Origin: Salinibacterium sp. M195
GTDB taxonomy: Bacteria; Actinomycetota; Actinomycetes; Actinomycetales; Microbacteriaceae
Assembly: GCF_019443965.1 (NCBI RefSeq)
Contig: NZ_CP040814.1
Coordinates: 1-64,000, forward strand
Direction of reading: 5' to 3'
DNA: 64,000 nt
The notes below the pieces were generated by a model. The model worked only from the letters and a program-made list of their open reading frames with translations, did not search any database and was not told the DNA's origin. Each line of letters starts with the position of its first letter. Within the stretch, counting starts at the first letter, position 1. Shown one piece after another: positions 60,546-62,054 of this stretch. Position numbers and translations under genes: made by a program.

Positions 60546-62054
60546 TTAGTCGGCTGACGGTTCGGCAGCGGTGGTCGACTTCGAAGCAGTCGACTTCGAG
60601 GCAGTCGACTTTTTTGCTGCCGGCTTTCTGGGTGTGGACTTCGTTGCTGTCGGCTCTTTTATTGCAGGCTTCGTTGCCGCCGGCTTCTTCGGCGCCGACT
60701 TTTTCGCAACAGATTTCTTCGCGACCGGCTTCTTCGCGGTCGCGGTCGCCTCCGATACCAACTTGGCCGGGGCAGACTTCGTTCGGGCCACCTTCGTGTC
60801 CGATGCTGCTTTTGGCTGCGTCATCTTTGGCGTCGTCGTGTTTGGCATGTTCTTCTTCGGCGACGGCGTCGTCGTCTTTGGCGCTTTCTTCGCCGGCGTC
60901 GTTGTCGGCGCTTTCTTCGTTGGCGTCGTTGTCGGCGTTTTCTTTGTTGGCGTTTTCTTTGTTGGCGTTTTCTTCGGCGACGCTGTTCGCGCGGCCGCTG
61001 CGGCTGGGGCTGCAGTCGGAGTCGACGATGCGTCTTCCTCCATGAGCACGGGAGCTCCGCGATCGACTATCCCGGCATCGGAGACCGAACCAACAGCCTT
61101 CGAGACGTGAGCTTTGTTGACGTCGAGTTCGTTGTCGCCACCGGTGCCATCGTCTGCGGCACGAGCCACATCGCGATTGTCACTGCTCTCGTCGTCGTCG
61201 TCATCGTCATCGTCATCGTCATCGTCATCGTCATCGTCATCGTCATCACTGTCGCTGTCGCTGTCGCTGTCGCTGTCGCCGTCGCCGTCGCCGGCAAGCC
61301 GTTCACGACGCTCTCGCACTTTGCCAAGGACGGTCGGGACAAGGAGGATAAGCAACAGTACGACTGCAGTAGTCGCGATTAGCACGACAGACTGCACTGA
61401 ACCTTGATCGGGCTGGGGCGTTGGATCAATGATGTCAATCGTTCGGCCAGTCAGCATCGGCTGATACTCGGCGAGAGTCATCTCCCCGGCGACTCCACTT
61501 TCGCCGCGCACAAGCGGAACGATCGAGCCGTCGCTGAGGCTGAACCAGGCACCCGTCTCTGGCTCGTGCACGAGGGTCGCGTCCGTCTCGACATCGTCGA
61601 GCGCGAGCGCTGTTCCGGGGCTATGGACGAAATCAATCATTTCCGGATCAACTGTTGCAGGATTGATCCCGATCATCGCAACGCCGACAGGTTCTTCGCC
61701 GATAAGGACCGGAACTTTCCAGCGGTTCACATATTGCACCGGAGTGTCGGTCACCTCGCCCGAGCGAAACGCATCAGACCACAAGAACATTCTGTCGATT
61801 TCACCGAGCTCGATGCCCTCGGAAAAGTCGAGGCCGTTACCACTCTGATCGACGCCAAAGTAGTCTTCGAGCTCGGCAATCAACCCATCATCAGCAGAGC
61901 CGAAGGCGGTGACATCCGGCGGAATAGAGCCGGTGGATGCCGCAGCGGCCGCGGGAGAGCCGAAAGTCAGGATCGCAAACATTGCCACAGCAGCAAGCAA
62001 CCAGCTACGGCGAACACTCGAGAATGACGCAGTTTCGGTTCGACCAGCTCGCAT
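60546..62054 (-). CDS. Secreted/membrane protein with poly-Asp tract and histone H1-like Lys-rich tail
   Basis: A 502-residue protein with no family match that I can name. A signal peptide (about 15-40) is followed by an external domain (about 43-215, acidic, containing IGEEPVGVAMIGINP), a transmembrane helix (about 219-244) and a basic stop-transfer KVRERRERL. The cytoplasmic part has (GD)3, five SD pairs and 19 consecutive Asp (about 256-289). After about 60 mixed residues a 145-residue tail follows, made of Lys/Pro/Ala/Thr repeats with KKTPT, KKAP, SPKK and AKK units, like histone H1 or HupB tails. Start ATG at 62054 has AGGCGC upstream; the longer frame overlaps the divergent gene. Confidence 0.8.
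   Translation of the reverse strand: MRAGRTETASFSSVRRSWLLAAVAMFAILTFGSPAAAAASTGSIPPDVTAFGSADDGLIAELEDYFGVDQSGNGLDFSEGIELGEIDRMFLWSDAFRSGEVTDTPVQYVNRWKVPVLIGEEPVGVAMIGINPATVDPEMIDFVHSPGTALALDDVETDATLVHEPETGAWFSLSDGSIVPLVRGESGVAGEMTLAEYQPMLTGRTIDIIDPTPQPDQGSVQSVVLIATTAVVLLLILLVPTVLGKVRERRERLAGDGDGDSDSDSDSDSDDDDDDDDDDDDDDDDDDDESSDNRDVARAADDGTGGDNELDVNKAHVSKAVGSVSDAGIVDRGAPVLMEEDASSTPTAAPAAAAARTASPKKTPTKKTPTKKTPTTTPTKKAPTTTPAKKAPKTTTPSPKKNMPNTTTPKMTQPKAASDTKVARTKSAPAKLVSEATATAKKPVAKKSVAKKSAPKKPAATKPAIKEPTATKSTPRKPAAKKSTASKSTASKSTTAAEPSAD
61191..61278 (-). repeat. Hexanucleotide microsatellite encoding Asp and Ser-Asp runs
   Basis: A GTC/ATC run with period 6 (TCATCG, about 61200-61247) passes into a CTGTCG run (about 61249-61278). 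It codes for the 19-Asp run and the five Ser-Asp pairs of the membrane protein. Alternating GAT/GAC codons give a near-perfect period. Confidence 0.92.

Follow-up and report, generated by a model that had tools for sequence, protein, structure and literature searches.

LpqB is a lipoprotein that serves as an accessory to the two-component system MtrAB, and the chlamydial histone H1-like protein HC2 is a free nucleoid protein with no membrane domain. In actinobacterial topoisomerase I (TopA), lysine repeats resemble histone H1 sequences and, according to a review, are believed to make the complex of enzyme and DNA more stable (PMC7398561). For RocS of Streptococcus pneumoniae, a published account describes a C-terminal anchoring (PMC13042908).

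Here we describe a gene from Salinibacterium sp. M195 whose product resembles each of these systems in part. The window, meaning the whole stretch of DNA that was analysed, is 64,000 nucleotides long. By its sequence, the protein is a member of an undescribed family of single-pass (type I) membrane proteins of the Microbacteriaceae. We tentatively propose, with a probability of about 0.42, that it acts as a loose membrane-to-nucleoid tether, in which an acidic spacer would keep a tail that binds polyanions, probably DNA, at a distance from the membrane.

Architecture and membrane topology

Translation of positions 60546-62054 on the minus strand returned the order that a sequence-only reading of this DNA had described: an external domain, a membrane helix, a run of 19 Asp and a Lys/Ala/Pro/Thr tail of 145 aa. 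The features of the gene are as follows.

60546..62054, minus strand: whole gene (P0001), 502 aa, from the translation and its homologues
61938..62054, minus strand: predicted signal peptide, aa 1-39, its boundary placed by the conserved (S/T)xGS(I/V/T)P that opens the mature part
61410..61937, minus strand: extracytoplasmic domain, aa 40-215, matching no family; its model is confident as far as about aa 203
61326..61388, minus strand: transmembrane helix, aa 223-243, from hydropathy; the helix at 178-209 of the predicted model corresponds to aa 217-248
61299..61316, minus strand: RERRER, aa 247-252, a positive-inside cluster, from the sequence and from Lys/Arg counts in 42 homologues
61158..61292, minus strand: acidic juxtamembrane segment, aa 255-299, with (GD)3, (DS)4 and Asp-19, from the sequence
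61191..61247, minus strand: Asp-19 run, aa 270-288, encoded by repeated GATGAC hexanucleotides that no other homologue examined shows
60549..60983, minus strand: Lys/Ala/Pro/Thr tail, aa 358-502, 145 aa, computed net charge +31

The mature protein begins at about Ser40, as computed from the 502-aa translation, and residues 259-300 carry a computed net charge of -25. Judged from the residues themselves, the protein has the marks of a type I single-pass protein, with a signal peptide, one C-terminal helix and a positive cluster on the inner side. All 42 genomic homologues have at least two Lys or Arg in the 10 residues past the helix and at most one in the 10 before it. Under the positive-inside rule, these charges and the signal peptide would place the tail in the cytoplasm, a location that we infer from the charge rules and that supports the earlier claim that the charged regions are cytoplasmic. 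The C-terminal part is presumably a disordered cytoplasmic tail.

A predicted model of the external domain and helix, 183 aa in all, has a mean pLDDT of 88.8, with values below 50 in the last 15 residues. Using Foldseek, we obtained borderline matches at 12% identity to the prostaphopain B pro-region (1x9y, E 8.1e-3) and to monellin (E 1.3e-2), both of them cystatin-type folds. Unlike prostaphopain B, the protein that bears the external domain has no protease domain. We attributed the matches to Nup133 and to fragments of other beta-propellers to partial sheets, and thymidine kinase, the best sequence match of known structure (E 0.68), was taken as noise.

Distribution of the family

Homologues of the external domain and helix occur in 20 of the 27 genomes of the genus and in 43 of 398 family-level genomes, where they fall into 13 of 85 genera (the Salinibacterium genome is counted in both sets). 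Thirty of the 43 family matches were retrieved as loci. The alignment-based protein search scored 7998 candidates and was confined to proteins 0.55-1.75 times as long as the query, which leaves very long tails under-represented in its results. The full protein reached the cut-off of no Pfam or NCBIfam model, and a Pfam scan with the domain and helix of 19 homologues gave no credible match. The earlier statement that no described family has this order of parts thus agrees with these searches, in which no family with a defined role was matched. FAM176, V_ATPase_I, EbpS and other weak Pfam or NCBIfam matches were set aside, as they lay far under their cut-offs and mostly on the helix or the charged stretches. 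There were no plasmid-borne relatives in PLSDB at E 0.01, and the open-licence PMC literature yielded no paper on this membrane protein family.

Beyond the family, two weak matches at E 0.01 were found in 394 class-wide genomes, and another search gave two more. The relative in G026 (locus L020; E 6e-4), from another family of the order, has a helix, an acidic stretch and a terminal SPKKKDKNSSGLSDD segment, such that its C-terminal end runs from an acidic to a basic segment. The weak relatives in G508, G680 and G031 have short tails. Homology of these proteins from outside the family, that of G026 included, is plausible but tentative. Pfam scans found nothing in the L073 and L020 proteins and gave only sub-cut-off matches for P0035 and P0060.

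Acidic segment, charge order and tail length

The 19 Asp are encoded by a microsatellite of hexanucleotide units (period 6, 9.3 copies, 98% match) in which the codons GAT GAC are repeated. Among the 147 homologue rows examined, which hold the window protein twice (P0001 and L001) along with other overlaps between genome and protein hits, the longest Asp run in any other homologue is 6; in the counts of charge order given below, such overlaps are handled by clustering. The run looks like a local expansion of a DNA repeat, not a conserved feature. A repeat expansion seen in a single genome cannot lie at the heart of any conserved way of masking the tail, and we ruled it out as a functional core. 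The sequence-only reading had suggested that the acidic run could mask the tail; of that claim, the part that depended on the 19 Asp falls, and what stands is a milder acidic segment that recurs at the same place. Of the 11 genomic tails with lengths of 12-55 aa, 10 have a net acidic charge past residue 8 (five shorter tails were left uncounted). The acidic segment may thus be the more ancient one, with basic repeats beyond it that some lineages have gained or others lost.

In longer tails the acidic residues lie proximal to the helix and the basic residues distal. This order was found in 70 of 72 testable tails when domains were clustered at 90% (54 with shuffle p<0.05), in 22 of 23 at 70% clustering (11 with p<0.05) and in all 15 at 60% clustering (8 with p<0.05), where p was obtained from shuffles of each tail's own letters. 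The opposite order was seen in P0072, the one exception among the 23 tails at 70%, and in 2 of the 72 at 90%. The set was drawn from the 149 of 816 rows that matched the profile, with two dropped for want of a clear helix. Tails under 40 aa, or with fewer than three acidic or fewer than three basic residues past residue 10, were excluded; masked letters were cut from the L051 tail, and metagenome proteins may be truncated. Since long tails may be partly inherited, the representatives do not count as fully independent cases, and taken singly some half of them fall short of significance. As a control, we took other post-helix tails from 389 sampled ORFs of the same genome, and 5 of 7 were acid-proximal with none at p<0.05, a thin comparison of 7 tails from crude longest-ORF gene calls. 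The locus offers a case in which a conspicuous feature, the 19 Asp, resembles repeat drift while a quieter charge order is conserved.

The tail is labile. Its length ranges from 6 to 316 aa among homologues, and it is long in 26 and short in 16 of the 42 genomic homologues. On a tree of these 42 rows, not rooted by the data, the long or short state changes at least 7 times, with 6 of the changes forced by well-supported branches, and the two states have therefore switched at least 6-7 times. Because 16 of the 42 have a short tail, the tail is not the essence of the family, and the core role can do without it. Within the close clade, the long tail is kept in 10 of 10 genomic members.

This lability bears on the main rival to the tether reading, neutral low-complexity drift. 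The tail would then be a weakly constrained extension whose length changes by repeat slippage, and its charges would serve only solubility and membrane avoidance, with no specific partner. The repeated switching between states, the wide span of lengths, the private hexanucleotide repeat behind Asp-19 and the presence of imperfect tandem repeats (9-42 bp) within the DNA of the tail all speak for drift. The tail DNA is also codon-diverse, with 399 of 424 12-mers distinct and Lys encoded by 24 AAG and 10 AAA, which argues against recent slippage as the sole cause. Drift is also at odds with the persistence of long tails throughout the close clade and with the Lys/Ala/Pro composition and acid-to-base order, which are kept in diverged lineages with mixed codons. 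We consider this explanation somewhat doubtful.

TopA-like repeats in the basic tail

A search of the protein's own genome with the tail (E up to 0.1; 150 of 188 candidates scored) found, apart from the tail itself, a single further place: the C-terminal end of topoisomerase I, an assignment made by PF01131 and PF13368. The match is compositional (57% over 63 aa, E 0.006). The TopA C-terminus consists of (AKKPA)n repeats and ends in ADETQ; the membrane protein likewise has degenerate K/A/P repeats of the TopA type at its C-terminus. The tail had earlier been called histone H1-like, and the likeness of its repeat units to those of the genome's own TopA supports that description. In roughly 464 kb of DNA (the window and 20 stretches sampled from the same genome), we examined 389 crude ORFs, and none but this protein has a last 100 aa rich enough in K to pass the threshold set. 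The HC2 model PF07382 matches the full protein weakly, at 13.8 bits against a cut-off of 40 and thus under the Pfam gathering threshold; the tail of the genome's TopA scores 37.7 bits against this model. Taken together, the TopA-like repeats and the review of TopA lysine repeats (PMC7398561) support, as distinct from demonstrate, DNA binding by the tail.

By eye, the last residues of the tail (60549-60572) are of ESSAD, EPSAD, DSSAD and APQ types in the close clade and are more alike than the remaining tail. This acidic end of the close-clade tails resembles the ADETQ end of TopA.

Gene neighbourhood

The neighbours of the gene that bear on its function are listed below.

59208..60539, minus strand: MATE exporter, 6 bp downstream of the gene (MatE PF01554, 5.8e-42; TIGR00797, 9.7e-83)
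56064..56816, minus strand: response regulator of the histidine kinase (Pfam)
54565..56067, minus strand: histidine kinase (Pfam), whose homologue lies upstream of the membrane-protein gene in the commonest arrangement outside the close clade
62185..62793, plus strand: YqaJ-domain protein, the divergently transcribed neighbour

On the minus strand, the window reads nusG, rplK, rplA, an acetyltransferase gene, a membrane protein gene, the YqaJ-domain gene (plus strand) and then our gene, followed by the MATE gene, ABC and FtsX-type permease genes (plus strand), the response regulator, the kinase, the rplJ leader and rplJ. Pfam confirmed L1, L11, the acetyltransferase, FtsX/MacB, the response regulator and the kinase; nusG and the remaining window genes were named by reading or by a Pfam scan.

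The MATE ORF has its GTG start codon at 60539, and the coordinates, with the PF01554 and TIGR00797 matches, confirm the exporter 6 bp after the gene that had been noted before. The exporter lies directly downstream in 10 of 10 close-clade genomes, at a gap of 3 bp in two and 6 bp in eight, and no MATE match at E 1e-3 was found in 10 distant loci of 6-15 kb. Conservation of the pair, proposed earlier as a check, thus holds in the close clade and fails at the distant loci. We ruled out the pair as a general functional unit, since it is limited to the Salinibacterium-like clade.

At other loci the kinase is the commoner neighbour. Of the 35 matches outside the genus, 22 were examined as loci, and 20 of these have a homologous kinase on the same strand no more than about 1 kb upstream (the gap is about 0.9 kb in four). 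Within the genus, the distant clade has the gene behind the kinase at 9 of 10 loci, with two gaps near 0.9 kb, the tenth locus being a 6.3 kb contig. Together with the divergent FtsX/MacB-type permease and ABC ATPase beside the response regulator-kinase pair, this arrangement would fit an external domain that senses or modulates a signal from the envelope and so adds a third component to the two-component system next to it, with a tail that tunes this activity or is incidental. However, four genomes of the genus (G021-G024) have the kinase without the membrane-protein gene; rplJ follows the kinase in G021, G022 and G024, and an unrelated ORF lies between them in G023. Conversely, G005 has the gene and lacks the kinase in a search at E 1e-60, two loci of 3.6 kb (L062 and L072) gave no kinase match, and in the window's clade the gene adjoins MATE instead. 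The kinase-only and gene-only genomes rule out an obligate partnership, and with MATE and the kinase each missing beside some homologues, neither is an obligate partner. A role as third component seems unlikely.

The response regulator-kinase pair, the divergent FtsX-type permease and the ABC ATPase form a conserved module at 54565-59189 of the window. At the G005 locus (L021), the rplJ leader closely follows the MATE gene and the kinase was not found, as if the module had been deleted.

The position of the gene between the ribosomal protein genes rplA and rplJ raises another alternative, in which the basic tail would bind ribosomes or RNA, or anionic lipids, rather than DNA, for example in a membrane-ribosome contact. 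Polybasic tails bind any polyanion, which counts in its favor. Still, the rplA-rplJ interval also contains unrelated genes on both strands, which makes the location weak evidence, and the one other match of the tail in its own genome is TopA. We regard such a partner as improbable.

Several neighbours deserve mention in their own right. The YqaJ-domain protein (lambda-exonuclease type) is small and divergently paired with the gene in the close clade; at 89.6-93.0% identity in 7 compared loci, it looks chromosomal and conserved rather than phage-borne. The GNAT acetyltransferase (Pfam; window 63622-64000; L040:13623-14171, minus strand) lies a few genes upstream of the membrane-protein gene. 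It is also present in 7 close-clade loci of 14 kb (L021-L027) and is unmatched in the distant loci, which may fall short of it. Acetylation of the lysine tail would be a guess. Before rplJ there is a conserved leader with the motif CCAAAGACCGC (window about 54330-54560, minus strand; L030:7735-7869). In L030 this leader can be aligned with the whole of the Rfam L10_leader model, but at only 23 bits (E 0.1; cut-off 44), and none of 9 loci has an L10 leader at the Rfam cut-off. Probably it is a version of the L10 leader proper to Microbacteriaceae and missed by Rfam.

A putative stand-off tether

The loose tether remains the reading that we prefer. The folded domain would sit outside the membrane and the C-terminal tail in the cytoplasm. 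In long-tail lineages, the distal lysine repeats, of the kind seen in actinobacterial topoisomerase I, would bind polyanions, most likely nucleoid DNA. The acidic segment next to the membrane may act as a stand-off: repelled by anionic lipids, it would prevent a collapse of the basic part onto the membrane surface. The outcome would be a loose link between membrane and nucleoid that is coupled to the extracytoplasmic domain. We infer the DNA binding, the spacer role of the acidic segment and any signalling.

We know of no transmembrane nucleoid tether of this kind in bacteria. The broader proposal, that an envelope-facing protein, often encoded third behind a two-component pair, has repeatedly gained or lost TopA-type repeats on an acidic spacer and thereby physically links an extracytoplasmic domain to the nucleoid, strikes us as quite unlikely. 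If the tail does bind DNA, the homologues, which range from tailless through acidic-tailed forms to those with an acid-plus-base tail, would provide a simple natural series for studying how a membrane protein holds the nucleoid, and one could ask whether an extracytoplasmic signal acts directly on chromosome position.

Comparison with known systems

Both the membrane protein and TopA carry C-terminal Lys/Ala/Pro repeats that resemble histone H1 and finish in a few acidic residues. As an enzyme that acts on DNA, TopA lacks a membrane helix, whereas the repeats of the membrane protein sit past a helix and an acidic segment, and its external domain is unrelated to TopA. The likeness to HC2 lies in the Lys/Ala-rich tail, and some homologues carry precomputed PF07382 labels. 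LpqB of MtrAB is comparable as a third gene behind a response regulator-kinase pair that encodes an extracytoplasmic domain. The two differ in that LpqB has a lipid anchor and this protein a membrane helix, and the gene here is separable from the kinase. To our knowledge, RocS has no external domain. The proposed tether is comparable to RocS in that the latter binds the membrane and connects chromosomal DNA to it in Streptococcus pneumoniae (PMC13042908).
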